Assembly (NCBI GenBank): GCA_028818385.1
Contig: JAPPNY010000108.1
Coordinates: 1 to 50,368, forward strand
Reading direction: 5' to 3'
Length of the DNA: 50,368 nt
Source of the DNA: Spirochaetaceae bacterium
GTDB taxonomy: Bacteria > Spirochaetota > Spirochaetia > SZUA-6 > Bin103
Part shown: positions 1,013 through 42,504 of the stretch, one piece after another
Position numbering within the stretch: position 1 is the first letter of the stretch
How the letters are laid out: every line of letters starts with the position of its first letter
Notes under the pieces: model-generated
Told to the model about the DNA's origin: nothing
Databases searched by the model: none
The model's input: only the letters and a program-made list of their open reading frames with translations
Program-made: the position numbers and the translations under genes

Positions 1013-1034
1013 TGTGTCAATTCAGCTTGACACA
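1013..1034. promoter_or_regulatory. Palindromic operator over the HTH-gene -35 box
   Basis: Two perfect 8-base arms, TGTGTCAA at 1013-1020 and TTGACACA at 1027-1034, are separated by six bases. The right arm contains the TTGACA -35 hexamer of the downstream HTH/AbiEii operon, so a bound dimer would block RNA polymerase. The obvious candidate ligand is the HTH protein encoded at 1065. Confidence 0.7.
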
Positions 1035-1056
1035 TGATACTCATACCTGCTATCGT
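1027..1056 (+). promoter_or_regulatory. Promoter of the HTH/AbiEii operon
   Basis: TTGACA (1027-1032), 18-base spacer, TATCGT (1051-1056) preceded by TGC, which is an extended -10. The start codon at 1065 is nine bases after the -10, so the transcript would be essentially leaderless. No Shine-Dalgarno is seen. Confidence 0.65.
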
Positions 1057-1064
1057 TTAGAAAC

Positions 1065-1544
1065 ATGCATCTCACTGTTCTCAAAGCGGTTATGGCCAAG
1101 CGGGGCAAGAGCCAGGCGGACATCGCAAGAGCTGCCGGGGTCAGCCGCCAGGCGGTGTCGCTGTGGTTCGCGTCCGAGCGCAACTTTCAGAATGTCCGCG
1201 TTGCCACGCTGCTGAAGCTGAGCGACTCGCTTGAAATCGATCCCGCCGAGCTCCTGGAGCCGCTTCCCGGCATGGACGATCCCGTGGCCGTGCGCCGGCT
1301 CGCCACCGAGTTCTGCTGGGACCGGGCCTACCCGGACATCTATCGGTTTCTGACCGCGTTGGCGGATGCCGAGCCGCGTGCGACGGCACGGTTCATCGAG
1401 AGTCGAGGGATCTATGCAGCGGCGGCAGTGCTCGGCCAACGGATATGGGATGACTACGCCGGCCTGAGGTCGCTCCTGCCACCGGTCAGGCGTACGGAGC
1501 TCGATACGGTATGGCGGATTCACCGAGATTTGACCCGGAATTAG
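1065..1544 (+). CDS. HTH (XRE/Cro-type) antitoxin-like regulator
   Basis: 159 residues. The N-terminus has a helix-turn-helix, with SQADIARAAGVSRQAVSLWF at about residues 15-34, of the lambda-repressor/Cro type. The remaining 100 residues are helical and unrecognised, probably dimerisation or toxin binding. It starts at ATG 1065 directly after an extended -10 and ends inside the next gene, overlapping it by 34 bases in another frame, which implies translational coupling. The partner is an AbiEii-type nucleotidyltransferase, so this is probably the antitoxin and autorepressor of a TA pair. Classical AbiEi antitoxins have a winged-helix N-terminal domain and a long C-terminal domain. This one is a shorter XRE-type variant. 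Confidence 0.75.
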   Translation: MHLTVLKAVMAKRGKSQADIARAAGVSRQAVSLWFASERNFQNVRVATLLKLSDSLEIDPAELLEPLPGMDDPVAVRRLATEFCWDRAYPDIYRFLTALADAEPRATARFIESRGIYAAAAVLGQRIWDDYAGLRSLLPPVRRTELDTVWRIHRDLTRN

Positions 1545-2260
1545 CTGACCGCGTTCTGCCGCATCCGCTCCTGGACGCACTGCGTCACGTCTTCGCGCAG
1601 GGGATCGGCGACTGCATGCTGGTAGGCGGGACTGCGCTCGCCGGGTTCTATGCAGGTCATCGGCGCTCCGACGACCTGGACCTGTTCGCCGGCACGGCGA
1701 CCGCGTTCCGGCAAGCCGTGCTGGCCGTGCGCAGCCTGGTCGCGCTGGGAACCGAGATGCAGGAGCGGAGTCACAGCAACCAGTACTACCGGGCTGTCTG
1801 CTCCAATCGGGAGTTGGACTTCACCGTCGACGTCGTCCTCGACCCACATGCCCTCGACATCGGCGGGACCAACCTGGCGGGCGACGTGATGGTGGCCGAC
1901 CTGCCGACGCTGCTCTCGATGAAGGCCGCGACCCTGGTATCGAGGTGCAGTGAGAAAGACCTCTATGACCTGCTGTGGCTGTTCGGCGCGTTTCCCGACC
2001 GGCACTTCGCCGATCTCATCGAGCTCGGTCGTGAATTCGACGGCAGCGTCAACGGAGAGACGCTGCTCTACAGCATCGGCAGCGCCGACCTGGAGCAGGA
2101 GGCATGTGGGTTCGCGAGCGATTTCGGCACGTCGGCGGCTGCGGTGCTCACCAGCATCAGGGATCTCCAGCGAGAGCTTCTGGTCGCACTCGACCGGCAC
2201 CTGACGACGCGCACGAAGGACAGGCTCGGCGACGTCGTGCGGCGGATGCGCAGGCTGTGA
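1511..2260 (+). CDS. AbiEii/AbiGii-family nucleotidyltransferase toxin
   Basis: 249 residues. It has the nucleotidyltransferase core of AbiEii toxins: LVGGTALAGFYAGHRRSDDL followed by DLF, where GG (residues 39-40) binds the nucleotide phosphates and D55 and D57 of SDDLDLF are the metal ligands. Further on, SMKAATLVSRCSEKDLYDLL is the conserved Lys/Arg/KDxxDL segment. Members such as AbiEii and MenT toxins add nucleotides to RNA or bind GTP and arrest growth, often in phage defence. The catalytic residues look intact. It overlaps the HTH gene by 34 bases and ends 39 bases before an unrelated oxidoreductase gene. Activity and target are inferred from family only. Confidence 0.8.
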   Translation: MADSPRFDPELADRVLPHPLLDALRHVFAQGIGDCMLVGGTALAGFYAGHRRSDDLDLFAGTATAFRQAVLAVRSLVALGTEMQERSHSNQYYRAVCSNRELDFTVDVVLDPHALDIGGTNLAGDVMVADLPTLLSMKAATLVSRCSEKDLYDLLWLFGAFPDRHFADLIELGREFDGSVNGETLLYSIGSADLEQEACGFASDFGTSAAAVLTSIRDLQRELLVALDRHLTTRTKDRLGDVVRRMRRL

Positions 2261-2299
2261 CTCGTCCGGGGGCCGCCTCGGTGTAGACTGTGTGCCGTC

Positions 2300-3235
2300 A
2301 TGGCTCACGACCTTCGCATCGGCATCATCGGGCTGGACTCCAGCCACACGATCGAGTTCACGCGGCGCTTCCAGGCTCCCGACTGTCCCCCGGAGCAGCG
2401 CGTCGCCGGCGTCACGGTGACCCGATGCATGCGCTTCGAGACCCCCTTTCAGGACCGCGCGGGCCTGGACGGCCGGCAGCGGGAGTTGGAGGGCTGGGGC
2501 GTGGAGGTCACCGAGGACTTCGACACCGCGGTCGCCGGCGCCGACGCGGTGCTGATCGAGATCAACGACCCGGGTCTCCACCTGCAGTACGTGCGGCGCT
2601 GCGCCGGCCTCGGCGTGCCGCTGTTTCTCGACAAGCCGCTCGCTCAGGACCTCGCCGCCGGACTGGAGATCGCCCGTCTCGCGGCCGAGCACGACCTTCG
2701 CATCTGTTCCGCCTCGTCCCTGCGGTTCGCGGCCGGGCTCCAGGACGCGTGCGCCGCTCTGCCGGCGCCGCGCCACGTGACCACCTTCGGACCCATCAAC
2801 CGCGCGGCCGCCGGCAGCTCGATCGTCTGGTACGGCGTGCACGCGGTGGAGATGCTGGTCCGCGCCATCGGCCGCGGGGCGATCACGGTCGCGACCCACC
2901 GCTGGGGCGAGGACGCGATCCTGGTCGTCGACTATGCGGACGGCCGCACCGGCGTGGTGGAGCTGTTCGTCGGCAGCGGTTACGGCGGCGTGCTGCGCGG
3001 CGGCAAGGACGTCGTGCCGTACACCGTGGACCAGGCCGGGATTTACACGGCCATGCTCAGCGAGCTGGTGCCGTTCCTGGCCGGGGGCGCCTCGCCGGTG
3101 CCGCTGGAGGACGCGGTGGAGGTGATCGCCATCCTGGACGCCGCGGAGCGCTCCTCGCAGGCCGGAGGAGCGGCCTCGATGCCGGTCCGGCCCACGCCGG
3201 AGAGCCCGGCCGCGCAGGGAGCCCCGGCCTCGTAA
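2300..3235 (+). CDS. Gfo/Idh/MocA-family oxidoreductase
   Basis: 311 residues, slightly short for the family (330-390). An N-terminal Rossmann fold shows GIIGLDSSHT at residues 7-16, replacing the usual GxGxxG, then ADAVLIEINDPGLHLQYV and FLDKPLAQD, the counterpart of the EKP motif whose Lys is catalytic. The C-terminal part has SSIVWYGVHAVEML, matching the conserved HxxD/H region with the Asp replaced by Glu. Such enzymes oxidise or reduce sugar or cyclitol hydroxyls with NAD(P). A -10-like TAGACT at 2284-2289 lies ten bases before the ATG. The last 25 residues are Ala/Pro-rich and probably disordered. The altered glycine motif makes cofactor use uncertain. Confidence 0.75.
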   Translation: MAHDLRIGIIGLDSSHTIEFTRRFQAPDCPPEQRVAGVTVTRCMRFETPFQDRAGLDGRQRELEGWGVEVTEDFDTAVAGADAVLIEINDPGLHLQYVRRCAGLGVPLFLDKPLAQDLAAGLEIARLAAEHDLRICSASSLRFAAGLQDACAALPAPRHVTTFGPINRAAAGSSIVWYGVHAVEMLVRAIGRGAITVATHRWGEDAILVVDYADGRTGVVELFVGSGYGGVLRGGKDVVPYTVDQAGIYTAMLSELVPFLAGGASPVPLEDAVEVIAILDAAERSSQAGGAASMPVRPTPESPAAQGAPAS

Positions 3236-3240
3236 GGGCG

Positions 3241-3253
3241 GGAGGGCGTCATC
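3241..3253 (+). promoter_or_regulatory. Ribosome binding site with no canonical start nearby
   Basis: GGAGGG at 3241-3246 is a strong Shine-Dalgarno. The nearest in-frame canonical start, GTG 3266, is 19 bases away, while the in-frame ATC at 3251 is only four bases away and would add IDYPR to the protein. This raises the possibility of an unusual ATC start. Confidence 0.4.
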
Positions 3254-3265
3254 GACTACCCACGC

Positions 3266-4534
3266 GTGTTCCGCGTTCGCCAGCGGTTCGACGCGCCGCG
3301 GGTCGATGACGTCGCCGGCGCGGTCGAGCGTCAGCTCGCGGAGCTGTCGCTGGACGAGGTCATCCGGCCGGGGCAGAGCGTGGCGGTCGCCGCCGGCAGC
3401 CGCGGTATCTCCGACATCGCCACGATCCTGCGCACGGTCGTGACCGTGCTTCGCCGGCTCGGCGCGCGGCCGTACCTGGTGCCCGCCATGGGCAGCCACG
3501 GCGGCGGCACCGCCGACGGCCAGCGGGCGATCCTCGAGTCCTACGGCATCACCGAGCGGTTCTGCGGCTGTCCCATACGCGCCTCCATGGTCACCGTCGT
3601 CATCGGCCAATCGGAGGAGGGCATCCCCATCCACCTCGACCAGCACGCGTACGCCGCCGACCACGTGGTGGTGTGCAACCGCATCAAGACGCACACGCAG
3701 TTCTCGGGCCGGGTGGAGAGCGGGCTGTCGAAGATGCTCCTGATCGGGCTGGGCAAGCACGCCGGCGCCCGCGTCTACCACCGCGCGATCCAGGACTTCA
3801 GCTTCGACCGGATCCTGCGCAGCGTCACCGGCGTCGTCACCGCCCACTGCTCGGTCATCGGCGTCGGCATCGTCGAGAATGCCTACGGCCGCACCACCCG
3901 CGTGGCGGCCGCCCTGGGGCCGCGACTCGCGGACTTGGACGAGGAGCTGCTGGTGCAGTCGAAGCGGTGGGCGGCGCGGCTGCCGTTCGACCGGGCTGAC
4001 GTGCTGCTGATCGACGAGATCGGCAAGAACATCTCCGGCACCGGGTTCGACGTGAGCGTCGCCGGCCGCAAGTACCTCGACCACGAGCCGGCGCCGGACG
4101 AGTACCCGAAGGTGCGGATCGTCGCGCTGCGCGACCTGGCCGACCTGAGCGGCGGCAACGCCGAGGGCATGGGCCTGGCCGAGTTCTGCCGCACGCGGCT
4201 GCTCGACAAGGCGGACCTCCGCATCACCCGCATCAACGCCCTGACCAGCGGCCACTACACCGGCGCGATGCTGCCCATCGACTTCGAGACGGACGCCGAG
4301 CTGCTGCAGGTGGTGCTGACCGAGATCGGTCTCACCGAGCCGCCCGACGCCAGGATGATCTGGATCCACGACACCCTGGACCTGGGCGAGGTCGAGTGCG
4401 CCGCCGCCTACTGGGACGAGGCGCGCTCCCGCGACGACCTGGACGTGCTCACCGACCCGCGGCCCCTCCCCTTCGACGCCGACGGCAACCTGCCGGATGA
4501 CCTCGCGTCGCTGTCTCCCGCCGCCCACGGCTGA
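3266..4534 (+). CDS. LarA-like (DUF2088) nickel-pincer racemase-family protein
   Basis: 422 residues from GTG 3266; an ATC at 3251 may be the real start because a good Shine-Dalgarno sits just before it. The N-terminal half has GSRGISDIATILRTVV and the loop VPAMGSHGGGTADGQ, which corresponds to the GxHRxxT region of lactate racemase LarA. It is followed by NRIKTHTQFSGRVESGLSKM, with Lys and His residues placed as in the LarA active site. LarA enzymes isomerise 2-hydroxy acids with a nickel pincer nucleotide made by LarB, LarC and LarE, none of which is in this window. The substrate here is probably a sugar acid, because every neighbour is sugar-related. That is inference. Confidence 0.75.
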   Translation: MFRVRQRFDAPRVDDVAGAVERQLAELSLDEVIRPGQSVAVAAGSRGISDIATILRTVVTVLRRLGARPYLVPAMGSHGGGTADGQRAILESYGITERFCGCPIRASMVTVVIGQSEEGIPIHLDQHAYAADHVVVCNRIKTHTQFSGRVESGLSKMLLIGLGKHAGARVYHRAIQDFSFDRILRSVTGVVTAHCSVIGVGIVENAYGRTTRVAAALGPRLADLDEELLVQSKRWAARLPFDRADVLLIDEIGKNISGTGFDVSVAGRKYLDHEPAPDEYPKVRIVALRDLADLSGGNAEGMGLAEFCRTRLLDKADLRITRINALTSGHYTGAMLPIDFETDAELLQVVLTEIGLTEPPDARMIWIHDTLDLGEVECAAAYWDEARSRDDLDVLTDPRPLPFDADGNLPDDLASLSPAAHG

Positions 4535-4570
4535 ACGTCGGCCGTGCGGCCAGGTGCCGGTCTGCGGCGC

Positions 4571-5920
4571 TCAGCGACGCTCCAGGCCGCGCAGCACCGC
4601 GTCGAGAATCCGTTCGGCCGTGCCGGGCTCGAAGTGGGCCGAGCCGGTCTGCGCCTCGTAGCCGCCGGCGGCGAGATCGTGCCGGAACGGCAGGTAGCCC
4701 TCGTAGCCGTTCGCGTAGGAGATGACCAGAGCGTCCGGGAAGCGATCGGCCACGCGCAAGCCGAGCTCCGCCAGCACCTCGAAGGGCAGGGCCACCAGCG
4801 GCAGATCGCCGATCCGCACCTGCTGGATGCGGACGGCGAACGCGCGTTCCGGCCATCGGCGGGCCGCGTAGGCCAGGTGCAGCGCTTCCAGGTACTCGTC
4901 ACGCGCCGCCCCGTCCTGTCCCGAGGAGTCAGCCCGGAGCCGGTCCGCGGCGGAATGCAGCCGGGCAGCGGGATCGCCGGTCAGGTCGTGGCGCACCCGT
5001 GCACGAAGCTCGTCCCAGGTCACGTCCACCCGCTCGGCGGCGACGGGGCGAAACGCCCGGTCGCCCAGCAGCACCGCGTGCGCCAGGGTCTCGCCGATCC
5101 AGCGCCTTGATTCGCCTAGGCGGCGCATCGGCACGACGTCGCCGGCCGCCGCCTGCGCGAAGAACACCGGGCAGCCGTACTCATCGCCCAGCGCGCCTCT
5201 CAGGTAGTGAACGAAGTCCGACGACACGAGCAGCGACGTGCTGTCGCCGTGCCGGTCACCGGTGACCGTGTGGCAGCCGAAGTGGACGAGCACGGCGCCC
5301 ACGTCGCCGGAGCCGGCGGCGCGGAACCGCAGCGCCGTGAGGCGGTCGTCGGTGGGCGACAGCTCCGGAGCGGGGTCGGTGCCGTCCGGGTAGCGAAAGG
5401 TGGTGGCCACCGAGCCGTCGGGCTGGCGCATGCGCCGGTTGTAGTGGACCTGGGGCACGCGGGTGCGCAGCACCTCGACCGTACCCGGCGCCAGGCGGCT
5501 CACCGCTTCTTCGCAAGCCTCGACCACCTTGGTGGTCATCTCGTCCCCGTAGGCGGCGTCCGCGTCGTTGATGCCGTTCCATCCCACGTCCGGGCGATAG
5601 ATCCGCTGCAGTCCTGCCGCCGGCGCGTAGTGGGTATGCGAGCAGGCAAGCATGATGCGCTCCACCGGGACGCCGGTCCGCTCTGCGATGCGGCCGGCAA
5701 GCGCCCGCGCCGCCGCGTCCTGCACGCCGACCAGGTCCAGGGTTACGATCAGCGCCGGCTCACAGCCGTCGGCCTGCCCGGCACCGGCCTGAACGGCGAT
5801 GCAGCCGGCCAGTATCGGCTCGCTCACACCGGTCGACGGCCCGTCGCGGTTGACGTAGCCTCCCATCCACACCGGCCGATCCGGCGTGATGTCCCTCGTT
5901 GCGCACCCGAACTTCAGCAT
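4571..5920 (-). CDS. Neutral/alkaline ceramidase-like hydrolase (N-terminal domain only)
   Basis: 449 residues. It begins with FGCATRDITPDRPVWMGGY, the signature opening of the neutral ceramidase N-terminal domain, and contains ACSHTHYAPAAG (the metal-binding HTH-xPAG segment) and VLVHFGCHTVTG with further candidate zinc ligands. True neutral ceramidases are about 650-750 residues, secreted, and have a C-terminal Ig-like domain; this protein has neither a signal peptide nor that domain. Many short bacterial relatives sit in sugar clusters and probably hydrolyse another amide or ester. A -10-like TACCAT lies six bases upstream of the ATG. Actual substrate unknown. Confidence 0.7.
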   Translation of the reverse strand: MLKFGCATRDITPDRPVWMGGYVNRDGPSTGVSEPILAGCIAVQAGAGQADGCEPALIVTLDLVGVQDAAARALAGRIAERTGVPVERIMLACSHTHYAPAAGLQRIYRPDVGWNGINDADAAYGDEMTTKVVEACEEAVSRLAPGTVEVLRTRVPQVHYNRRMRQPDGSVATTFRYPDGTDPAPELSPTDDRLTALRFRAAGSGDVGAVLVHFGCHTVTGDRHGDSTSLLVSSDFVHYLRGALGDEYGCPVFFAQAAAGDVVPMRRLGESRRWIGETLAHAVLLGDRAFRPVAAERVDVTWDELRARVRHDLTGDPAARLHSAADRLRADSSGQDGAARDEYLEALHLAYAARRWPERAFAVRIQQVRIGDLPLVALPFEVLAELGLRVADRFPDALVISYANGYEGYLPFRHDLAAGGYEAQTGSAHFEPGTAERILDAVLRGLERR

Positions 5921-6006
5921 GTGCCCATGGTAACAGGCGGGCGCCAGCGCCGTACGAGACAGTGCGCCGGGTCGACCCGCGGAGGTGGACCGTACGATGA
6001 TGCCTC
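5921..6006. promoter_or_regulatory. Divergent promoter region
   Basis: This 86-base gap separates divergent genes. On the minus strand TACCAT (5927-5932) lies six bases before the ATG at 5920; on the plus strand TACGAT (5993-5998) lies eight bases before the ATG at 6007. Neither gene has a convincing Shine-Dalgarno and no good -35 is seen, so these are -10 calls only. Confidence 0.4.
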
Positions 6007-7332: not shown

Positions 7333-7336
7333 CTGG

Positions 7337-7365
7337 TTGACGCCGGGTCGGCCGGGTCCTACCGT
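7337..7365 (+). promoter_or_regulatory. Leaderless promoter of the MDR gene
   Basis: TTGACG (7337-7342), 17-base spacer, TACCGT (7360-7365), then six bases to the ATG at 7372. Standard initiation seven bases past the -10 would fall on the A of the start codon. Confidence 0.7.
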
Positions 7366-7371
7366 CGCCGA

Positions 7372-9497: not shown

Positions 9498-9510
9498 GGG
9501 CTGACAGCGG

Positions 9511-10746: not shown

Positions 10747-10757
10747 GGCGACCGTCG

Positions 10758-13223: not shown

Positions 13224-13229
13224 GGGGCG

Positions 13230-14576
13230 CTACTGCACGCGCGCGGCCCACACCTCGTACAGCCCCTGCTCGCTCGCCGACTGGAACACCGCCCAGCGGC
13301 TGTCGCGGGTGACGTGCACGTTGGTCTCGAAGCGGCCGGCCCTCATCTTCAGCCGCGGCATGCTGCGGAAACGGCAGATCGGAGTGGTTCCGACCACGTG
13401 ATCGGGGTTCTCGGCGATCGCCTGGTGCGCCTCCGCCTCGGTCTGGAACTCCCGCACCTCCGGCCATAGCGTCCGTTCGGGCAGGTCGAACTTCCAGATG
13501 ACCTCGGTGGCGGACGCGCTGTTGTGCAGCCCGTCCCACGGGTGGGTCGAGGTGGGACTCACGTCCTGTCCCAGGCTCTCGATGAGGCCGACGTCGACGA
13601 CGCTGAAGCTGCGCCCGTCGCCGGTCATGAACGACTCGTCGGGCGCCGGTGTCATGTGGATGGAATTGCCCACGTGCGGGCGCCCGATGTAACGGGTCGC
13701 GCGCTCCCGCTCGAGGTCGTTCACGTAGATGGCGTGGCACGCGAAGGGCCAGCCGTGCGAATAGACCCTCGCGCCGTCGGCGCTCCAGTGCTCGTGGGTG
13801 CCGCGCGAGCGCAGCTTTCCCTGCAGGTCGAGCCAGCGGCCGGTGGAAAGGTCGACGATGCGCTGGCGCTGCATGTCGACCGGGCGCCGGTAGCGCTCGG
13901 TGAAGTAGTAGCCCTCCTGGCAGCACATGAAGAGTGACGGGTCCACCGGATTGGGGTTGGGATGGCCGACCCAGAACTGGTCCGTTTCGACGATCGTGTC
14001 GACGGCCCCCGTCTCCAGGTCGATCCGGTACATCAGATTGGGGCCGGGCTCCGAACCCAGGATCGCCGACCGCTCCAGAGGCGTCGTGCCGGCAGGCAGG
14101 TCGCGGTCCTTCAGCGCTTCGTAGGCGAACGTGTAGCGGTCGTCGGCCGTGCACTCGGCGAACACGACAGGCGGCAGCGGGCGGTCGGGCTCGATGCGGG
14201 TCTTCGTGCCGTCGTCCAGATCGATGCGCACGATCTCCGGGCGGTCGCCCGAGTGCTCCGCCACGTGCAGCAGATGCGACTGCGGCGAGACCGCCCAGCC
14301 GGCCAGGCCATCGCTGCCGTCGTCGAAGACCCGGTACTCGTGGACGCGCTCGGCGTGGCCGCTTTGCAGGTCGATGGCCCAGAGGCAGGACGGCCGGCGG
14401 CCCTCCGGGTCGTCGCCGCGCAGCACCAGCAGGGCGCCGTCGCGCGTGAGCGCGGTCGACCGGAAGTAGCTGATGCGCACGTGCAGCCCCTCCTCGGGCA
14501 CCAGGCGCACCACCTCGGTTCCGGTCCAGGGGTCCTGCCAGCGGCTGCCCGCCCTGTCGAAGGTCACCGGCAACAT
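13230..14576 (-). CDS. Oligogalacturonate-lyase-like propeller, second copy (PL22-type)
   Basis: 448 residues without a signal peptide. It starts with RWQDPWTGTEVVRLVPEEG and keeps the three Ogl segments closely: GHPNPNPVDPSLFMCCQEGY, GTHEHWSADGARVYSHG and SIHMTPAPDESFMTGDG. The middle and last resemble, in spacing and His placement, the metal-binding THEFW and SHLMSN regions of known Ogl enzymes, so this copy looks the most enzyme-like of the three in the window. The C-terminal GTTPICRFRSMPRLK stretch is shared with the copy at 10758. A -10-like TACCCT ends six bases before the ATG. Probable cytoplasmic uronide lyase. Confidence 0.7.
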   Translation of the reverse strand: MLPVTFDRAGSRWQDPWTGTEVVRLVPEEGLHVRISYFRSTALTRDGALLVLRGDDPEGRRPSCLWAIDLQSGHAERVHEYRVFDDGSDGLAGWAVSPQSHLLHVAEHSGDRPEIVRIDLDDGTKTRIEPDRPLPPVVFAECTADDRYTFAYEALKDRDLPAGTTPLERSAILGSEPGPNLMYRIDLETGAVDTIVETDQFWVGHPNPNPVDPSLFMCCQEGYYFTERYRRPVDMQRQRIVDLSTGRWLDLQGKLRSRGTHEHWSADGARVYSHGWPFACHAIYVNDLERERATRYIGRPHVGNSIHMTPAPDESFMTGDGRSFSVVDVGLIESLGQDVSPTSTHPWDGLHNSASATEVIWKFDLPERTLWPEVREFQTEAEAHQAIAENPDHVVGTTPICRFRSMPRLKMRAGRFETNVHVTRDSRWAVFQSASEQGLYEVWAARVQ

Positions 14577-14582: not shown

Positions 14583-14622
14583 AGGGTAGCAGGTTGACGG
14601 AAGGGCGGCCCGCTCCTACGGT
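14583..14622. promoter_or_regulatory. Back-to-back leaderless promoters
   Basis: Plus strand: TTGACG (14594-14599), 17-base spacer, TACGGT (14617-14622), eight bases to the ATG at 14631. Minus strand: TACCCT read from 14588 to 14583, six bases to the ATG at 14576, with no clear -35. The whole intergenic space is only 54 bases, so the two polymerases would compete for it. Confidence 0.6.
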
Positions 14623-14630
14623 CGCTTGCG

Positions 14631-24601: not shown

Positions 24602-24637
24602 AAGAGAGGGACTCTCTTCTCCGATATACCAAGTATA
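24602..24637 (+). promoter_or_regulatory. Promoter/operator region of the PIN module
   Basis: A 7-bp perfect inverted repeat (AAGAGAG at 24602-24608, CTCTCTT at 24612-24618) is followed by TATAC (24625-24629) and GTATA (24633-24637), a second short palindrome. TATACC (24625-24630) could be a -10 lying eight bases before the ATG at 24639. No good -35 is seen. Confidence 0.45.
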
Positions 24638-24638
24638 C

Positions 24639-25130
24639 ATGGCAAGAGAGAGAATACGTGTTGCAGACGAGGTGTGGGTGGCCACGGCACTCCTGCACAA
24701 GCAGCATCCGGACCGGGATGACTTCACCGTCGCCGAGATCAGCCGGCGCGCGGCCGCAGAGGCAAACGGCGCGGGGCCGCTGCGCCCGGGCTTCGTGGTG
24801 CATGCGTCCCAGCACTGCGTCGCCAGCAAGGCGCCCAATCCCGGACGCTACCGGATGCTGATCGAGACCGAACGCGGACGCCGCCGTCTGTTCCGGCCGG
24901 GCGACCCCTACCACCCCGACCGCCGGGGCGGGAAGACCGTCCCGCGCACGGAAGAGCTTCCCTGGGGATACCGCGGCCTGGTCGAATGGTATAACTCCGA
25001 CTACGTGGGGACCGCCATCATCCCGATTCCGGTCGACCCGATTCTGTCGCTGGTCGACATCGGCAAGTCGCTCCGCTCGACCGAAGCGGCCGACACGCTG
25101 GTGCGGCGTCTCCGGGAGTCGAGCCGATGA
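24639..25130 (+). CDS. Probable antitoxin partner of PIN toxin (unrecognised family)
   Basis: 163 residues. Not one of the standard ribbon-helix-helix, AbrB or Phd antitoxins. The N-terminus reads VADEVWVATALLHKQHPDRD then DFTVAEISRRA, which looks like a winged-helix unit, followed by PGFVVHASQHCVASKAPNPG and a basic segment RRRLFRPGDPYHPDRRGGK. I recall this layout in proteins labelled DUF7669 but cannot check it. It overlaps the PIN gene start by four bases (ATGA), the usual antitoxin-toxin arrangement, and it sits behind two short palindromes. The unusually long size and DNA-binding-like start suggest an autoregulating antitoxin of a less common type. Confidence 0.6.
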   Translation: MARERIRVADEVWVATALLHKQHPDRDDFTVAEISRRAAAEANGAGPLRPGFVVHASQHCVASKAPNPGRYRMLIETERGRRRLFRPGDPYHPDRRGGKTVPRTEELPWGYRGLVEWYNSDYVGTAIIPIPVDPILSLVDIGKSLRSTEAADTLVRRLRESSR

Positions 25131-28941: not shown

Positions 28942-30588
28942 CTAACTGGAAGCGGTCTTGTACAACTCGATCAGCTCCTCGGCTCCGAGGTTCCTGATCT
29001 CATCCTGGAACGCCGCGAACTCGCTCAGCGGGCGCTTGCCGGTGATGAACAGGATCGACTGCTCCTGGGCGTACGTGTCCAGGGCGGTCTTCAACTGCGC
29101 CTCGCGGTCGGCTTGTTCAGCCGTGAAGTTCGTGATCGGCTCCGGCCGCTGCGGGGTCGAACCGTCCGCCACGTACTGGCGCGCCTCGACCTCGAACTGC
29201 GTGTAGTCCGGGTCGCTCTCGATCGTCATGTTCGCTTGCATGCGCGGGTTGTCGATGCCGACGATCGGGACGTTGGCCAAGCTTGTGCGCACGCCGAACT
29301 TCTGCAGGAACCACTCATGGTCGGCCAGCGTGCCTTCGGGATTGTACGGGGTCTTGATCTCCGGCGTGAGCCACCGGTACTTGCCGTCGACGATGTCCCA
29401 GTATTCGCCGGGCGGGCCGAAGAAGATGCTGTAGCTGTTCTCTTCAACGGTCATGAAGTCCATGAATGCCATGATCTCCGGGATGTGCTCGGACTGCGAC
29501 GAGATGAGCTTGACGTAGCGGTAGTTGCCGTAGGGCATGGTATTGCGGGAGCGCGCCCGCGGGCCGCCTTCCACCAGACTGGGGATGCGCAGGGCGCTGA
29601 ACGTCCACTCCTTGCCGGGTCCGTAATCGGGGAGGTCGAACTGCGTGACCGGGCTGAACCAGTTGCCCGACGCCGACCACCACCAAGTGAAGAACGATTC
29701 GTGGTTGGCCAGCGACTGGCTCCACTGGTCGTAGCTCATGGTGAAGGTGTCCGGGTGCAGCAGTCCCTCCGCCCACAGGCGCGAGAAGTACTCCATGAAG
29801 TACTCGTACTCGGCATCCAGCGGGCCGTACTGCCACTCACGGTTGGTATGGTTGAAGTAGATGCTCTCGTCGGTGTTGAAATTCGCCCCGGCCATGAACA
29901 GCAGCACCGAGCGGTCGCCGGTCTGCCAGGCGTTGACCGGATAGGAGTCCGGGAACTCCGCCTTCAACATCTTGAACGCCTCGTAGAGATCCTCCCACGT
30001 GTCTCGCGGCAGGTCCATTTTTTCCCACAGGTCTTCGCGGTAGGCCAGCGTCAGAGAGAACGGAATCGGATCGGCGTTGTAGCTGGCGAAGCCGTACTTC
30101 TTGCCGTCCTTGGTGACCATGTTTGCGAGCGGCTCCACCTCTTCCATCAGCTTCATATAGCCCGGGAGCAGGTGCGCGTAATCCAGGATGTTGACGAAGA
30201 GCCCCTTGTCGCCGAACGCGTCAAGATCCGCTTTCGTGAGCGTCGAGGCGCCAGGATTGAATATGTCCGGCAGGTCGCCGGTGGCCAGCATGACCTGATA
30301 CTTGGCGTCGATCTCACCGGGAGGTATCTGGATGTCGTTGATCTCGATATTGGTCTGTTCCTCCAGCCAGATGAACCCGGGATGGCCGTCATCGGCGAAG
30401 GCGTAGTGGCCGATCGTGGTGTGCTCCGCAATCGTGTAGTCGACGGTTATCTTCTCGGCAAGTGGCAGCGTGACCTGGTCCGGGATGGCACCGGCACCGC
30501 TGCCGTCCTCCTGGCCGGCAGCCCAGGCGCCTGACGCGGCCAGCAGCAAAACGCCGAGCGCAGCAAACGTGCGCGCGAATGTCTTCAT
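28942..30588 (-). CDS. Extracellular sugar-binding protein, second ABC system (YtcQ-like)
   Basis: 548 residues with AGGAGG nine bases before the ATG. The signal peptide is MKTFARTFAALGVLLLAASG with cleavage at AWA-AG, and there is no lipobox cysteine. The mature N-terminus AAGQEDGSG is low-complexity, a style common in spirochaete binding proteins. Typical YtcQ-family segments include YQVMLATGDLPDIFNPG, LAYREDLWEKMDLPRDTWED and a long C-terminal helix region with SILFITGKRPLSEFAAFQDE. It is transcribed divergently from its permeases at 30714 and 31678. Lengths and segments indicate a complete gene. Ligand is probably an oligosaccharide released for the lyase at 32624. Confidence 0.9.
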   Translation of the reverse strand: MKTFARTFAALGVLLLAASGAWAAGQEDGSGAGAIPDQVTLPLAEKITVDYTIAEHTTIGHYAFADDGHPGFIWLEEQTNIEINDIQIPPGEIDAKYQVMLATGDLPDIFNPGASTLTKADLDAFGDKGLFVNILDYAHLLPGYMKLMEEVEPLANMVTKDGKKYGFASYNADPIPFSLTLAYREDLWEKMDLPRDTWEDLYEAFKMLKAEFPDSYPVNAWQTGDRSVLLFMAGANFNTDESIYFNHTNREWQYGPLDAEYEYFMEYFSRLWAEGLLHPDTFTMSYDQWSQSLANHESFFTWWWSASGNWFSPVTQFDLPDYGPGKEWTFSALRIPSLVEGGPRARSRNTMPYGNYRYVKLISSQSEHIPEIMAFMDFMTVEENSYSIFFGPPGEYWDIVDGKYRWLTPEIKTPYNPEGTLADHEWFLQKFGVRTSLANVPIVGIDNPRMQANMTIESDPDYTQFEVEARQYVADGSTPQRPEPITNFTAEQADREAQLKTALDTYAQEQSILFITGKRPLSEFAAFQDEIRNLGAEELIELYKTASS

Positions 30589-30627
30589 CGTGATCGTCCT
30601 CCTGTGGGAAGCGCCGGCGCGCTCCCG

Positions 30628-31664: not shown

Positions 31665-31677
31665 GCCGGGACGGAAG

Positions 31678-32565: not shown

Positions 32566-32588
32566 CACCGCCGGCACTCTTGGCGCGC

Positions 32589-32617
32589 TTCACACCTCCG
32601 GCCGATCGGCGCATGAT
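32589..32617 (+). promoter_or_regulatory. Leaderless promoter of the second lyase
   Basis: TTCACA (32589-32594), 17-base spacer, CATGAT (32612-32617), then six bases to the ATG at 32624. Initiation seven bases past the -10 would coincide with the start codon. No Shine-Dalgarno is present. Confidence 0.55.
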
Positions 32618-32623
32618 CGCCCG

Positions 32624-35370: not shown

Positions 35371-35377
35371 ACCGGCG

Positions 35378-37369: not shown

Positions 37370-37388
37370 CCGTTCCACCGTGTCCGGA

Positions 37389-39380
37389 TCAGGACGCGCG
37401 GGCGGTTCGCGGTACGCGCCAGCGGGCGCCGGCGCCGCCGGTGACGTCGAGCGTCTCCTGGCCGATTACCACGCTGACCCGGTCCGGTCCCGCGCCGATC
37501 GCCCACCCTTCGGCTTCCTGCCGCCAACGGAGCGCGTCTCCCGGACGGCCGGCGACCACGGAGAACAGCGTCAGCAGCATCACGCGGTCGGCATGCAGGG
37601 ACGCCTCGACGTAGGGGTGGCCGTCCTGGAACTTCGTGCCATAGTAGTCGCGGTCGTACGGTGCGTGGTACCGGTGGCGCGCCGCGGCGTAGGCGGCCTC
37701 GCCTGCCAGGCTCACCATCCGGCCGGTCGCACTCGCCTTCCGGCCGTTGACGACGAAGCTCCCGTCCGCTTCCGGCTCGCACGGGTGGGCTGTGTGCCAG
37801 CGGAGCGATACGTCGCGTTCTTCGTCCAGGACCGCTTCGTCCAACACGACCACCGTGCCGGGCAACAGGTGCACGAGCGTACGGGCGACGCTGACGGCTC
37901 CCTCGTAGATGCCGGTCAGGTCGAACCGGCACCAGGCGCCGCGCGCCGGATCGCAGTCGGCCGCGGTCATCTCCGGCACCGGATCGCCCAGCTCCCGCGT
38001 CGTGGCGCCGTCGAGCATCAGCACGTTGTGGCCGGCGGTCCCCTTGCCGTAGTACCGCCCGCGCTCGCCCCAGGAGTAGCCTCCGCTGGAGCCCAGGTCG
38101 ACGATCAGGTGCTCGCTCCCGGAAGCGATGCAGACCTGGCCCGCGTCGTAGTCCATGTGATACGAGGAGGTGTCCCCGCGCGCCCGCATCGGCTCCCAGC
38201 CGTGCGCGGCCTTGGCCGACACCAGGCAGGCGGACCCGCCGGGGTCCCAGTCGGAACGGCTGATCACGCTCTTGCCGTAGGCGTCCCAGGCCATCGCCAG
38301 CGGCCACCGCCCGGCCGGCTCCTGCACCTCTCCTGAGCGGGCCACGGTCAGCAGCTCCAGCGCCAGGTTCGGGTAGCCGTTGACCGGCTGCAGGCGGCGA
38401 TAGAACCAGCGCAGCACCGGGTCGTCGCACAGCTCGGCGATCACCCCGATCTGCACCGCGTTCGGCCGCGCGTCGGGATTGCCGTCCCCGAACGGCACGA
38501 CCCCGCGCGGCAGTATCACGTGGTAGGCGTACCAGCGGCCGAACCGGCCGACCCGTTCGCGCAGCTCCGCATCAAGGCCCGCTTCGCCGTCGGCGCGCCG
38601 CCCCCGGTGATAGCGCAGCGCCTCGAAGAAGCGGATCGCGGTGAGCACCGACGCGGCGTATCCCGGCGACTCGTTGAACTCGCCGTCCGGTCCGAGGGTG
38701 TTCAGGTAGGTGCGCTGGTAGGCGATGGCGGCCTCGATCAGCTCGCCGGCCTCGTCGATCTCGCCTTCCATGGCAAGGCCGGCGGTGCCCATGCCGGCAG
38801 CGATCACGCCGGTCCAGTTGTTGTAGTTGCCCCAGTGCGCATCGCGCGTGCGGCTGTCCAGCACCGGCTGCAGCGCCCGCTCGCGGATGCCGGCGAGCAG
38901 CCAGGCGCGCTGATCGGGCCGCAGCGCCGGATGGAGCCAGTCGTAGGCGATCGAAAGCTGGCGCAGGTGCGAGCCGATGCGGTGGTCGGCGACCACGCCG
39001 CGCTCGGCGTTCACGGGGTGGCGCCACTCCGGCCAGGGCTCCGGGTCGAACATCCATTCGAGCTGCCGCAGCGCGTCGTCGCGGTACTCGGAGCGCTCGG
39101 CGATCAGCCAGGCCAGCGCCGCGTCGGTCACCCGCTGGAGCGCGGCTTCGGACAGCGGGTAGTCGTTCTCATGCCGCTCGACCGCCCCGGCCTGCCGTCC
39201 CGGCAGGGGTGTGCCCGGATCGTACGGCGGCAGCGCGGCCCGGCGTTCGACCTCGCCCTGCAGCGTGCGCCAGAGCTCGCGCCCCGGCCCCTCGGTCACG
39301 CCGCGTCGCAGCTCCTCCAGCGACAGCAGTCCGGGATACGAGCCGGCCGTCACGTGCAGCCGCGGGTGCTCGGGGCTCAT
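37389..39380 (-). CDS. Heparinase II/III-family lyase, tandem copy B
   Basis: 663 residues from ATG 39380, chosen because the sister gene starts at the same MSPEHPRLHV; an ATG at 39395 is the alternative. Motifs match copy A: GNYNNWTGVIAAGMG, GEFNESPGYAASVLTAIRFF, SSYHMDYDAGQVCIASGSEH and GTAGHNVLMLDG. Differences cluster in the toroid domain and in a few loops of the sandwich domain, for example SFVVNGRKASA against SFAVAGREATA, which could tune substrate use. No signal peptide. It lies 19 bases downstream of the sialidase-like gene at 39400 and probably shares its transcript. Confidence 0.85.
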   Translation of the reverse strand: MSPEHPRLHVTAGSYPGLLSLEELRRGVTEGPGRELWRTLQGEVERRAALPPYDPGTPLPGRQAGAVERHENDYPLSEAALQRVTDAALAWLIAERSEYRDDALRQLEWMFDPEPWPEWRHPVNAERGVVADHRIGSHLRQLSIAYDWLHPALRPDQRAWLLAGIRERALQPVLDSRTRDAHWGNYNNWTGVIAAGMGTAGLAMEGEIDEAGELIEAAIAYQRTYLNTLGPDGEFNESPGYAASVLTAIRFFEALRYHRGRRADGEAGLDAELRERVGRFGRWYAYHVILPRGVVPFGDGNPDARPNAVQIGVIAELCDDPVLRWFYRRLQPVNGYPNLALELLTVARSGEVQEPAGRWPLAMAWDAYGKSVISRSDWDPGGSACLVSAKAAHGWEPMRARGDTSSYHMDYDAGQVCIASGSEHLIVDLGSSGGYSWGERGRYYGKGTAGHNVLMLDGATTRELGDPVPEMTAADCDPARGAWCRFDLTGIYEGAVSVARTLVHLLPGTVVVLDEAVLDEERDVSLRWHTAHPCEPEADGSFVVNGRKASATGRMVSLAGEAAYAAARHRYHAPYDRDYYGTKFQDGHPYVEASLHADRVMLLTLFSVVAGRPGDALRWRQEAEGWAIGAGPDRVSVVIGQETLDVTGGAGARWRVPRTARAS

Positions 39381-39399
39381 CGATTCGCCACCCATCGGC

Positions 39400-40635
39400 T
39401 CAGGCGACCGCGATCCGGTACATCGTGTTGTCGGCCGTGAAGGAATGTTCGCGCGCAAAGTAGCGCGGCAGGTAGAGCAGGATGTCGCCCGAGCCCCGCT
39501 CCTCGCGCGCGTAGAAGTTGGACAGCGTGAGCCGTTCCAGCTCGCCCGGCTGGCGGTCGTCGATGGTCGTGACCGTGTCGCGCACGACCAGGGCGGTGTC
39601 GCGCTCTACCTCGGCGATCACGATCGGGTAGCGGGGGCTGTTGCCGCGCGGGTTGCCCTGGCACAGGTTGCCGAGCCAGAACAGCCGGCCGTCCGAGTGG
39701 TCGAGAAGCTGCGAACAGGCGCTGGGCGAATGGAGCGGCGCGCCCGTGGTATCCGCCCACGGCCGCACGTTGCCGAACGTCCAGCCGCAGTCCTCAGAGA
39801 TGGCGTACCAGCGGTATCCCGGCAGCTCCGGCCGCACGTCGTTGGAGCCGCGCATCACCATCAGCACGCGGCCGGGCGCGAGCTCGGCGATGCTCGCCTC
39901 CAGGAACCCGCGCGTGGATCGCTCCGGGTCGCCGATCACGCGCTCGGACAGTCGCCAACTCAGGCGAGGGCCGCCGTCCGCCCAGCGCCCGTGCAGCACC
40001 GCCGAGTCGTGGAAGGTGAAGCCGCCTCCCTTGTTGAGGAAGGTGCCGTCCGGACCCACCGGGCAGATCTGGCACGGCACCAGGATGTCGCCGGCATCGC
40101 GTCCGCCGCGCAGCGTGAGTGGCAGACACGTCAAGTCGCCGAGCATCACCCCGTTCCGGCCACGCCATACGCCGGGCAACGGGTGGTCCGGGTCGAACGG
40201 CACGCCGTCCCCGTCGCTGCCGGCGTGCACCACCGGTTCGTCGACCAGGTCGGTACGCCCGCCGTCCTCCGACACCGCGTAGTGCAGCGCCCACTGCCGC
40301 ATCCCTTCCAGCGGCTCGTCGGTGGGCAGCACCCCCTCCACGCGCACGGTGACGTACCGGTCGGTGGAGGGGTCGACGTGGCCCGCGCGCGGATACCGCC
40401 GCCACATGCCGCCGGCGCGCTGCTCGCCGGTCGCCACCTCGGTCACCGGTCCCCAGGTGGCGCCGCCGTCAGCGGAGCGCCGAAACAGGGCGATGTCCGC
40501 GGTATCGGACCGGGAGTGGTGGCTGTGCACGCTCACCAGCTCGTGGCCCGCGGCGCGCGTGTAGTAGGCGCCGCCGGCCACCCCGACGCCGGGTCCGGGG
40601 GACGGAACGAACACTTCTTTCGAGACGACCCTCAT
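39400..40635 (-). CDS. Sialidase-like (BNR) propeller protein
   Basis: 411 residues from ATG 40635; a longer frame to 40737 would cross the divergent TA promoter and adds a sequence with no family resemblance. Asp-boxes are few: RSADGGATW is clear, VSEDGGRTD and ISEDCGWTF are degenerate. HELVSVHSHHSRSDTADIAL and GGMWRRYPRAGHVDPSTDRY near the N-terminus hold candidate active-site His and Arg residues. No signal peptide. It heads a minus-strand unit with the two tandem lyases. TACAGT seven bases before the ATG is a possible -10 for a leaderless mRNA. Glycoside specificity unknown. Confidence 0.65.
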   Translation of the reverse strand: MRVVSKEVFVPSPGPGVGVAGGAYYTRAAGHELVSVHSHHSRSDTADIALFRRSADGGATWGPVTEVATGEQRAGGMWRRYPRAGHVDPSTDRYVTVRVEGVLPTDEPLEGMRQWALHYAVSEDGGRTDLVDEPVVHAGSDGDGVPFDPDHPLPGVWRGRNGVMLGDLTCLPLTLRGGRDAGDILVPCQICPVGPDGTFLNKGGGFTFHDSAVLHGRWADGGPRLSWRLSERVIGDPERSTRGFLEASIAELAPGRVLMVMRGSNDVRPELPGYRWYAISEDCGWTFGNVRPWADTTGAPLHSPSACSQLLDHSDGRLFWLGNLCQGNPRGNSPRYPIVIAEVERDTALVVRDTVTTIDDRQPGELERLTLSNFYAREERGSGDILLYLPRYFAREHSFTADNTMYRIAVA

Positions 40636-40734
40636 GAGGTTGACTGTACGCGACAGACCCTCGCACCGCCAGGGATCGCCCATCCGGGCCGTGCGCCCAA
40701 AGACGTGCCCGTCCGTCGTTTGACATGCGAGACA

Positions 40735-40757
40735 CATGTGAACATGCTATTCACATG
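40735..40757. promoter_or_regulatory. Palindromic operator of the FitA/VapC-like module
   Basis: Perfect 8-base arms CATGTGAA (40735-40742) and TTCACATG (40750-40757) with a seven-base spacer. TATTCA (40748-40753), preceded by TGC as an extended -10, overlaps the right arm, and a TTGACA lies at 40720-40725, though 22 bases away. The antitoxin at 40764 is the likely binder. Confidence 0.7.
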
Positions 40758-40763
40758 CACAAG

Positions 40764-40985
40764 ATGATTCAGATCCGCAACGTGCCGGAGTCGCTGCATC
40801 GCAAGCTCAAGGCGCGCGCGGCGATGGCCGGCATGTCACTCTCCGCTTACCTGCTCGAACAGATCACGGCTCAGGCGGCGGTGCCGACACCACAGGAAAT
40901 GACGGCTCGGCTCGAGCGGCTGGAGCCGGTGACGCCGAGAGAGGGCGTCGTCGAGGCACTGCATCGGACGCGCGACGAACGGTGA
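40764..40985 (+). CDS. FitA-type ribbon-helix-helix antitoxin
   Basis: 73 residues from ATG 40764; ATG 40755 and an upstream frame to 40725 run through the operator and are less likely. The sequence MIQIRNVPESLHRKLKARAA then MAGMSLSAYLLEQI is the RHH DNA-binding module of the FitA/VapB family, followed by a Pro/Glu-rich tail (TPREGVVEALHRTRDER) that would occupy the PIN active site. The short distance from the extended -10 makes a near-leaderless mRNA likely. It overlaps the toxin gene by four bases (GTGA). Expected role: neutralise VapC and repress the operon through the palindrome just upstream. Confidence 0.85.
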   Translation: MIQIRNVPESLHRKLKARAAMAGMSLSAYLLEQITAQAAVPTPQEMTARLERLEPVTPREGVVEALHRTRDER

Positions 40986-41374
40986 TCGTCGTCGATGCCT
41001 CGGTTGTCGTGGAGATGCTCCTGCACACCGAGGCGGGGATTCGGATCACCCCGCAGATCCACACCACCAGTGCGACCGTGCACAGCCCCCATCTGCTCGA
41101 TGCCGAGGTCGCGCACGTGGTCCGCAGGTATGCACTGGCCGGGGAAATCGACGCGGAACGTGGCGCGGAGATGGTGGACGTCTTGCGCGACCTCGTCATC
41201 TATCGGCACGATCACCGGCCTTTGCTGGGCCGGGCTTGGGAATTGCGCCACAACGTCGGCGCGTATGATGCGCTCTACGTGGCGTTGGCCGAGGCGCTGG
41301 ATGCGCCGCTGCTGACTGCCGACGGCCGCCTTGCCGCCGCGCCCGGGCATCGCGCCGAAGTGAGGACCATTTGA
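40982..41374 (+). CDS. vapC: VapC-type PIN ribonuclease toxin
   Basis: 130 residues from GTG 40982. PIN acidic residues: D5 in VVDASVVVEML, E42 in HLLDAEVAHV, D96 in YDALYVALAEAL and D114 in LTADGRLAAA. The order and spacing match VapC/FitB toxins, Mg-dependent RNases that cut tRNA or rRNA. The gene overlaps its antitoxin by four bases and ends 18 bases from a convergent SDR gene. No truncation is visible. Confidence 0.88.
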   Translation: MIVVDASVVVEMLLHTEAGIRITPQIHTTSATVHSPHLLDAEVAHVVRRYALAGEIDAERGAEMVDVLRDLVIYRHDHRPLLGRAWELRHNVGAYDALYVALAEALDAPLLTADGRLAAAPGHRAEVRTI

Positions 41375-41392
41375 CACGCCGAGAGAGGCGGC

Positions 41393-42175
41393 TCAGACGT
41401 GCGGGTTGATCACCAAGCCGCCGTCAATCAGCAACGATTGTCCCGTGATCATGCGGGCGTCGAGTGAGGCCAGGAAGGCGATGGCCTTGGCCACCTCGAA
41501 CGGCTCGACGACGCCGCCGAGCGGTGTGATCGCCTTGATCTTGGCCTCGTCCAGCACGCCCCTGGCCACCGCGTCATCCAGGATCGCGGTGCGCACCCAG
41601 GTTGGCGCGACGGCGTTGACGCGGATGCCGTGCGCGGCCCACTCGACGGCAAGCGAGCGCGTGAGCGCCTCGATGCCGCTCTTGGCCGCGCAATAGGAGG
41701 CGCGCAGCGGGAACCCCAGGTGGGCGCCGACCGAGGACATGTTGACGATCGCCGCGGTATCGGAATCGCGCAGCGCCGGGAACGCGGCCCGGCAGCACCG
41801 GAACGTGCCCGACATGTGGACGTCCAGCATGCGGGTCCAGGACGCGTCGGTCATCTCCGCCGCGGGCGCCCGGTCGGTGATGCCGGCGCAGTTGACCAGC
41901 ACGTCCAGTCCGCCCAGCTCGTCGACCGCCGCCGCGATGGCAGCGTCCACCGCCGCGCTGTCGCGCACGTCGGCGGTCGCCGGGATCACCTGCTGCGAAC
42001 TGTCGGCCATCGTGGCCCGCAACTCCTCCGCCGTCTTCCGTGCCGCGTCCGCGTCGCGGTCCACGATCGCCACGGCCATGCCTCGACACAGGAACTCCCG
42101 GCAGGTCGCCAGGCCGATGCCGGCCGCCCCGCCGGTGACCGCCGCCGCGCGACGTCTTCTGCTGTCGATCGCCAT
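41393..42175 (-). CDS. Short-chain dehydrogenase/reductase (SDR)
   Basis: 260 residues from ATG 42175. The frame is open further upstream but conservation starts at VTGGAAGIG. Classical SDR features are TGGAAGIG near residue 14 (NAD(P) binding), DVRD, NCAGI, the catalytic Ser in NMSSVGAHLG, the Tyr-x3-Lys in ASYCAAKSG and the C-terminal GQSLLIDGGL. An Asp after the second strand (VDRDAD) suggests preference for NAD. The substrate is likely a sugar or sugar acid given the neighbourhood, for example a keto-deoxy acid or aldonate, but the family is too broad to say. It lies isolated between two TA modules. Confidence 0.85.
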   Translation of the reverse strand: MAIDSRRRRAAAVTGGAAGIGLATCREFLCRGMAVAIVDRDADAARKTAEELRATMADSSQQVIPATADVRDSAAVDAAIAAAVDELGGLDVLVNCAGITDRAPAAEMTDASWTRMLDVHMSGTFRCCRAAFPALRDSDTAAIVNMSSVGAHLGFPLRASYCAAKSGIEALTRSLAVEWAAHGIRVNAVAPTWVRTAILDDAVARGVLDEAKIKAITPLGGVVEPFEVAKAIAFLASLDARMITGQSLLIDGGLVINPHV

Positions 42176-42247
42176 GCCGGATACTCGCCTGCACGGTACC
42201 CTCGACGCCACCGTCTCTGATACCCATGATCCGTTGACCGTACCTAC

Positions 42248-42276
42248 TTGTAGAACTATAGGTGGCCACGTATACT
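42248..42276 (+). promoter_or_regulatory. Leaderless promoter with near-perfect 18-bp operator
   Basis: TTGTAG (42248-42253), 17-base spacer, TATACT (42271-42276), six bases to the ATG at 42283. Within it, 42257-42274 is a palindrome, TATA-G-GTGGCCAC-G-TATA, with only one mismatched pair, covering most of the -10. Confidence 0.7.
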
Positions 42277-42282
42277 TACTCC

Positions 42283-42504
42283 ATGGCTCAGGTGACGGTG
42301 TACCTGCCCCAGGACGTGCTGGACGCGGCGCGCAAGCGGGCAAAGGAGCAGAACAGCAGCCTCTCGGCATGGCTCGCCCGCCTGGTTCGCCGGGAAAGCG
42401 TGACGGAATGGCCCAGGAGCCTGATGGACCTGTTGCATCACGGCAGCGCAGACCTGATCGAGCCCGAAGATCCGCCCCCTGAGGATGTCGAGACGTTGCG
42501 GTGA
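42283..42504 (+). CDS. Ribbon-helix-helix antitoxin (VapB-like)
   Basis: 73 residues from ATG 42283; an earlier GTG at 42262 is inside the operator. MAQVTVYLPQDVLDAARKRA and KEQNSSLSAWLARLVRRE form a ribbon-helix-helix DNA-binding domain, the first strand giving base contacts. The C-terminal half is acidic (IEPEDPPPEDVETLR), suitable for blocking a PIN active site. It overlaps the toxin gene by four bases (GTGA). No Shine-Dalgarno; the -10 six bases upstream implies a leaderless mRNA. Autorepression through the 18-bp palindrome is expected. Confidence 0.8.
   Translation: MAQVTVYLPQDVLDAARKRAKEQNSSLSAWLARLVRRESVTEWPRSLMDLLHHGSADLIEPEDPPPEDVETLR

Follow-up and report, generated by a model that had tools for sequence, protein, structure and literature searches.

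Near-start promoter boxes and predicted leaderless initiation at a minority of transcription units in an uncultured high-GC spirochaete lineage

A 50,368-nucleotide stretch of contig JAPPNY010000108.1 (assembly GCA_028818385.1, Spirochaetaceae bacterium), referred to below as the window, raises the question of whether operon-head genes in this organism are expressed from messages that lack a 5' leader. A first-pass annotation had described five well-spaced promoters whose -10 box ends just ahead of the start codon, and seven secondary sites at which a -10-like hexamer stands 6-10 bases ahead of the start, and had proposed that this is a general habit of the organism. All of these hexamers and spacers are present where they were described. 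The analysis reported here indicates that this lineage of uncultured, high-GC spirochaetes very probably uses a near-start -10 and leaderless-type initiation at a minority of its transcription units. The leaderless reading of the proposed habit is therefore supported, but leaderless initiation appears, with good support, to be a minority habit beside Shine-Dalgarno (SD) initiation and not a rule for operon heads. The mechanism itself is known, and the lineage is new for it.

Gene-start signals in the window and its nearest relatives

The codon model that assigned gene heads is blind to the motif. In the window, TANNNT with its first T at -15 to -12 from a plausible start stands ahead of 7/21 heads, where nine control windows average 1.0 and reach 3 at most (Poisson P 2.5e-4), and ahead of 1/23 internal genes. 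Where an ATG in the window is not one of a called gene's first ten candidate starts, TANNNT is found in 6/990 cases, never together with a -35 of at most two mismatches. Wider tests were run on sampled stretches of relatives' genomes. A search yielded four genomes of the family (G001-G004), with a sampled GC of 66.8-68.2% beside 67.9% in the window. G001, a metagenome-assembled genome (MAG) that carries the label uncultured Spirochaetia bacterium, was sampled over 740 kb, and the samples of G002, G003 and G004 measure 209-228 kb each. TANNNT occupies the same position at 49/297, 13/95, 21/113 and 19/126 heads of G001 to G004, against control means of 20.0, 6.2, 6.9 and 7.0, the weakest excess being that of G002 (P 0.015); for internal genes the counts are 11/233, 0/71, 2/55 and 1/73. 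The peak just ahead of starts lacking an SD, which the first-pass annotation had predicted beyond the window, is thus found in the sampled stretches of the nearest relatives.

Pooled with the window, the excess amounts to 10.4% of 652 heads (95% interval 7.6-13.2%), which is probably a lower bound, as only exact TANNNT was counted. The same pipeline gave 13/56 heads in a Thermus plasmid (control 4.3) and 6/55 in a Nocardioides plasmid (1.6) as positive controls, an excess of 15.5% and 8.1%, and 2/92 in Shinella and Sinorhizobium plasmids (4.6) and 2/23 in E. coli (5.3) as negative controls, an excess of -2.8% and -14.5%. The excerpted text of Zheng 2011 (PMC3160421) gives about 40% of genes as leaderless in Deinococcus-Thermus and about 20% in Actinobacteria; because these figures exceed the pipeline controls, the exact count probably underestimates the share 2-3-fold, although chromosomes need not behave like plasmids and the figures do not share one denominator (heads versus all genes). 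In-frame TAA/TAG stops, which later counts exclude, may have raised the first TANNNT profiles at positions -18, -15 and -12.

Motifs were sought without a prior by expectation-maximisation (EM; 12 random seeds, 469 heads from the window and the four relatives). Among the runs listed, the highest information content belongs to TAtnnT at -12/-13, where it is held mostly by positions 1, 2 and 6, and gAGGAg at -12 was also recovered in the two best three-motif runs on these heads. On 652 heads (6 seeds), TAtanT at -13/-12 recurred in the best run, a clear SD motif being absent from the best three-motif run on this set; the best runs on 336 and 455 internal genes yielded no TANNNT-like motif and no clear SD either. 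In 25 of the 109 family heads with a near-start -10, TTG lies 17 or 18 bases upstream of it, compared with a total of 2 for spacers of 12-16 (the scan spanned 12-18); near-start and further-upstream boxes look like one promoter type, since the TTG spacing is the same for both. ATG is the start codon of 76/109 of these heads and of 248/543 others (P 5e-6); where TANNNT occurs in control windows, the figure is 172.5/370. The preference agrees with the excerpted text of PMC3898074, according to which leaderless translation requires ATG.

A whole-genome search for TTGAC, 17-19 bases, TANNNT, 0-30 bases and ATG gave 100, 163, 224 and 33 matches in G001 to G004, and the reversed pattern 9, 21, 26 and 13. 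Within the first 100 of the 163 matches in G002, a spacer of 6 bases between TANNNT and ATG occurs 13 times and one of 7 bases 9 times, while spacers of 0-5 total 3; this edge fits leaderless starts, because a closer -10 would start the message inside the start codon. SD-like letters occur in 1/26 of these matches at spacers of 5-8 and in 18/44 at 17-30, a contrast that is partly trivial, there being less room for an SD in a short spacer.

The listed starts had been said to lack an SD, and internal and binding-protein genes to have one. Pairing with the anti-SD is weak at 11 of the 12 listed starts (dG > -4 kcal/mol), the departure being 2300 (-5.4). The two solute-binding protein genes tested do pair strongly (dG -10.3 and -10.8); the contrast is seen at the solute-binding protein gene 28942-30588 (minus strand), whose strong SD (AGGAGGA, 30588..30607) is conserved in G001. 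For internal genes the statement is true of most only, with 15/23 at dG <= -5 and the remaining 8/23 weaker; in G001 the figure is 162/233. The same threshold is reached at 0/7 TANNNT heads in the window and 11/49 in G001, compared with 9/14 and 173/248 other heads, which were scored at their best candidate start. The 16S rRNA of G001 retains the anti-SD sequence, and SD initiation is thus available in the lineage.

On the mechanism proposed, ordinary housekeeping-sigma promoters with a -10 (TANNNT) ending 6-9 bases ahead of the start codon would drive a minority of units. RNA polymerase would start the message at, or a few bases from, the A of the ATG, and the ribosome would initiate on this 5'-terminal or near-terminal AUG without SD pairing. 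Downstream genes and others, such as those for binding proteins, would use SD initiation or coupling.

Individual sites and their conservation in G001

The best match (80%) of the Gfo/Idh-type protein encoded at 2300 lies in G001, the next segments among 31 loci being 60% (partial) and 57% identical. G001 carries a syntenic block with orthologues of 18 window genes, 77-95% identical along the greater part of their length, and a nineteenth gene is matched there in part (69%); only matches above 60% were considered. Twenty start positions of 19 window genes, seven of them on the list of candidate promoters, could be aligned to this region, and the near-start -10 is kept at six of the seven. The TA..T columns at the six sites are identical in 17/18 cases, compared with 119/198 flanking columns (P 0.0014).

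These six sites comprise TAGACT (2284..2289, plus strand), 10 bases ahead of the ATG of the Gfo/Idh/MocA gene 2300-3235, which is TAGACT in G001 also, where it lies 7 bases from the start; TACCAT (5927..5932, minus), 6 bases ahead of the ceramidase-like gene 4571-5920 and unchanged in G001; TACCCT (14583..14588, minus), 6 bases ahead of the Pectate_lyase22-like gene 13230-14576, which matches G001 only in part, and TACGCT there; the promoter of the PhyH gene 14631 (14594..14630, plus), with TTGACG at 14594-14599, N17, TACGGT at 14617-14622 and 8 bases to the ATG, both boxes being kept; TATACC (24625..24630, plus), 8 bases ahead of 24639, the first gene of a PIN pair, which reads TATACT in G001; and TACAGT (40643..40648, minus), 7 bases ahead of the BNR gene 39400-40635, which is TACGGT in G001 amid diverged flanks. 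The 14576 and 14631 genes diverge from a common spacer of 54 bp, and palindromes occur at the 24639 promoter (24602-24618 and 24629-24642).

No orthologue above 60% was found in the syntenic G001 region for 1065, 6007, 7372, 40764 or 42283. The promoter of 1065 (1027..1064, plus) consists of TTGACA at 1027-1032, N18 and TATCGT at 1051-1056, with 8 bases to the ATG, and its -35 sits within an inverted repeat, TGTGTCAA (1013-1020)/TTGACACA (1027-1034). The gene (1065..1544, plus), a leaderless candidate, encodes a helix-turn-helix (HTH) protein that is the probable antitoxin of an AbiEii pair; because its Pfam HTH_26/HTH_3 domain begins at residue 6, the start at 1065 is favoured over the codon model's choice of 1092. 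The ADH gene 7372 has TTGACG at 7337-7342, N17, TACCGT at 7360-7365 and 6 bases to the ATG (7337..7371, plus), and the RHH-like (ribbon-helix-helix) gene 42283 has TTGTAG at 42248-42253, N17, TATACT at 42271-42276 and likewise 6 bases (42248..42282, plus).

Exact TANNNT with its first T at -15 to -12 is present at eight of the 12 listed sites; the others are 2300, with TANNNT at -16, 24639 (TATACC), 40764 (TATTCA) and 32624 (CATGAT). Taken as leaderless promoters, the listed sites exceed chance as a set, but not every member survives. The site ahead of the heparinase-like gene 32624 (32589..32617, plus), with TTCACA at 32589-32594, N17, CATGAT at 32612-32617 and 6 bases to the start, was rejected as a promoter, its -10 being not of TA type and having no counterpart in the G001 orthologue. 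At the BNR_4 gene 6007, TACGAT (5993..5998, plus) stands 8 bases from the start and is ambiguous; GGAGGTGG begins at -26, a leadered message could arise through it, and leaderless status is doubtful. It is doubtful also for the RHH antitoxin gene 40764, a weak candidate (40735..40763, plus) in which the repeat CATGTGAA/TTCACATG (40735-40757) overlaps TATTCA at 40748-40753 and an in-frame ATG lies 9 bases upstream.

Two further observations concern promoters in the window. By eye, the metabolic promoters at 7337-7371 and 14594-14630 have in common the string TTGACG..CGGCC.G.TCCTAC.GTCGC, and they may perhaps belong to one regulon. The SDR gene at 42175 (minus) has TACCGT at -23, conserved in G001, and no strong SD (dG -4.5), which suggests a leader of about 10 bases.

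Alternative explanations and known leaderless systems

Very short leaders, with transcription starting 2-10 bases ahead of the start codon and SD-independent initiation, are one alternative. Spacers of 8-10 bases are present at 1065, 6007, 14631, 24639, 2300 and 40764, the box at 42175 implies a leader of this order, and among the 109 family heads, which were selected for spacers of 6-9 bases, 21 have a spacer of 9. For sites with 8-10 bases, a leader of a few bases and none at all are not separable by sequence. The mode within the selected range is, however, 6-7 bases (73/109), and the scarcity of spacers of 0-5 in G002 (3 of the first 100 matches) fits a start at the A of the ATG, so that short leaders are an unlikely general explanation. 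It is considerably less probable that the start codons are wrong and that the hexamers are normal promoters of leadered genes whose true starts, with an SD, lie downstream: the codon model did choose other starts at five loci (1092, 24672, 40614, 40755 and 42262), but orthologous proteins align from residue 1 at 2300, 5920, 14631, 24639 and 40635, and at 1065 the HTH domain starts at residue 6.

The hexamers might alternatively be A+T-rich, unstructured or S1-binding stretches that aid ribosomes at starts lacking an SD. The excerpted text of PMC5397173 describes SD-less genes in some phyla as A/T-biased at -20 to -10, for which leaderless mRNA or S1 may be responsible; here, the concentration of motif information at positions 1, 2 and 6, the TTG 17-18 bases upstream and the lack of the motif at most internal genes make such stretches a highly improbable substitute for promoters. 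Chance matches picked by eye can be given almost no credence for the set as a whole, since motif discovery, the head counts, the TTG spacing, the footprint and the scan of 990 ATGs contradict them, although 32624 is probably one and 6007 and 40764 may be others.

Initiation on leaderless messages is the reading preferred here, and several points weigh against it. Only about 10% of heads lie above background and most heads are not demonstrably of this type. The absence of an SD is partly automatic, because a near-start -10 occupies the SD site. There is a small excess at internal genes in G001 (11/233 against a control of 2.7), an excess that internal genes of the Thermus plasmid also show (6/48 against 0.6). 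Starts were taken from the codon model and not from curated annotation, and an early unguided three-letter scan of G001, with rough starts, placed TANNNT only 5th and 8th, outranked by SD-like and other patterns. In the footprint, 32624 has no -10 counterpart, and conservation at 14576 and 14631 is not independent because they share one spacer. The 5' ends, the sigma factor and leaderless initiation itself are inferred from DNA. Established by sequence are the position-specific -10, the -35 at 17-18 bases, the concentration at operon heads, the ATG preference, the conservation in orthologues and the agreement with leaderless lineages.

In Actinobacteria and Deinococcus-Thermus, leaderless genes have TANNNT about 12 bases ahead of the start, beside SD motifs, according to excerpts of Zheng 2011 (PMC3160421), Cortes 2013 (PMC3898074) and Zhong 2025 (PMC12340547). 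The family resembles them in the position of its TANNNT and in an excess similar to that of the Thermus and Nocardioides plasmid stretches; it differs in belonging to another phylum, and in that its signal is read from genomes and not from a transcription start site map. In Mycobacterium tuberculosis no conserved -35 motif was found, according to the excerpted PMC3898074, whereas TTG is visible here at 17-18 bases. Among spirochaetes, the excerpted differential RNA sequencing map of Leptospira interrogans (PMC5243855) gives about 440 mRNAs with a 5' untranslated region below 10 bases; this is another lineage, and sigma-54 elements are the sole promoter motif reported in that excerpt, in contrast to the -10 and -35 seen here. 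Zheng 2011 (PMC3160421), again in excerpt, predicted a leaderless signal in 6 of 18 spirochaete genomes, with a mean of 3.9% of genes, compared with the excess of about 10% of heads in this family, the denominators being different. Among the literature matches listed, no leaderless-gene study of uncultured spirochaetes was recognisable by title or start of abstract, most subscription papers and all preprints lying outside the search. The findings would extend to an uncultured high-GC spirochaete family a mode of initiation usually discussed for Actinobacteria, Deinococcus-Thermus and archaea, and using a -10 model together with the SD model would improve the placing of start codons in such genomes.

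Spirochaetota, toxin-antitoxin genes and the neighbourhood

The age and frequency of leaderless mRNAs across Spirochaetota can now be put to the test. In a spacing test over 198 spirochaete genomes, the promoter pattern gave 11,128 matches at spacers of 5-8 bases and 7,717 at 17-20, and 4,545 at 5-8 when reversed. The short spacer is commoner in 166/198 genomes and the long one in 29, with 3 ties; 34 genomes favour the short spacer individually at P <0.001 and none the opposite at 0.05. At gene starts, no significant excess of TANNNT was found in G053 (13/83, control 12.0), G167 (24/97, 18.2), G007 (14/87, 18.1), G185 (35/139, controls 37-45) or G200 (12/89, controls 4-18), so that across much of Spirochaetota the trait may be weak or unevenly distributed, or may escape a count of exact TANNNT. 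All five have more matches at 5-8 than at 17-20 in the spacing test. G185 (26% GC; stretches L112, L113 and L201-L210) has a TTGA peak at -37 to -34, with 30 gene-position hits over 139 heads, compared with mostly 0-3 per position elsewhere and 6 and 5 at -41 and -40. This is where the -35 of a leaderless promoter should lie, and G185 would represent a second spirochaete lineage with a leaderless-type signal. Samples from G142, G151, G016 and G014 are thin (7-12 heads each), TA[CT]NNT at -15 to -12 is found in 0/23 heads of G191, and stretch L118, which has no readable bases, was left out of the gene-start test. That leaderless expression is a widespread and old trait of Spirochaetota, as frequent in several unrelated lineages (26% to 68% GC) as it is in Actinobacteria or Thermus, is a tentative suggestion, finely balanced and leaning slightly towards doubt; it would have escaped notice because few members have been cultured and their annotation relies on SD-centred start models.

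According to the excerpted text of PMC3898074, toxin-antitoxin modules of M. tuberculosis are enriched in leaderless mRNAs. In the window a candidate precedes each of the four toxin-antitoxin-like operons, with exact TANNNT at 1065 and 42283 and not at 24639 and 40764. Across the family, TANNNT at -17 to -11 is present at 5/22 PIN loci as against 2-4 in equal control windows, and no special link with toxin-antitoxin genes is therefore claimed; the sample was 30 loci of 126 matches, reduced to 22 by 5 incomplete loci and 3 without a partner open reading frame, and several of the 22 partners picked are probably not antitoxins. Each of the four operons has an inverted repeat on or next to its core promoter (1013-1034, 24602-24618, 40735-40757 and 42245-42277), with 8-bp arms at 1013/1027 and 40735/40750, 7-bp arms at 24602/24612 and imperfect arms at 42245-42277. 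Such repeats would be as expected of operators when a leader is absent; if it is indeed absent, the core promoter is where regulators such as antitoxins would have to act. PIN-domain matches number 42 in G002 and 69 in G003, compared with 8 in G001 and 7 in G004, apparently an expansion within one family, although genome completeness may differ.

The window encodes solute-binding proteins, permeases, heparinase-like, BNR, PhyH and other catabolic proteins, one AbiEii-type pair and three PIN-domain pairs; ARAGORN found no tRNA genes in it, and there are no Rfam matches at gathering level. An actinobacterial origin, suggested by the GC and the promoter style, was rejected, the best relative being the syntenic spirochaete MAG. 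A 16S rRNA match was obtained in 94/149 sampled genomes of the phylum, many of these matches being partial; outside the family, the closest of full length has 85% identity. Two differences from G001 concern gene order. The RHH/PIN pair 40764-41374 separates an SDR gene from a BNR gene and runs opposite to both; in G001 the matches of these two genes are only about 50 bases apart, apparently through insertion in the window's lineage or loss in G001. The 14576 product is matched in G001 (C2, near 1217600-1217900) over no more than about 74 residues of its N-terminal part, beside the ceramidase-like gene, and the genes between 5920 and 14576 have no orthologues above 60% in that region, which points to a deletion or insertion that joined the 5920 and 14576 ends.

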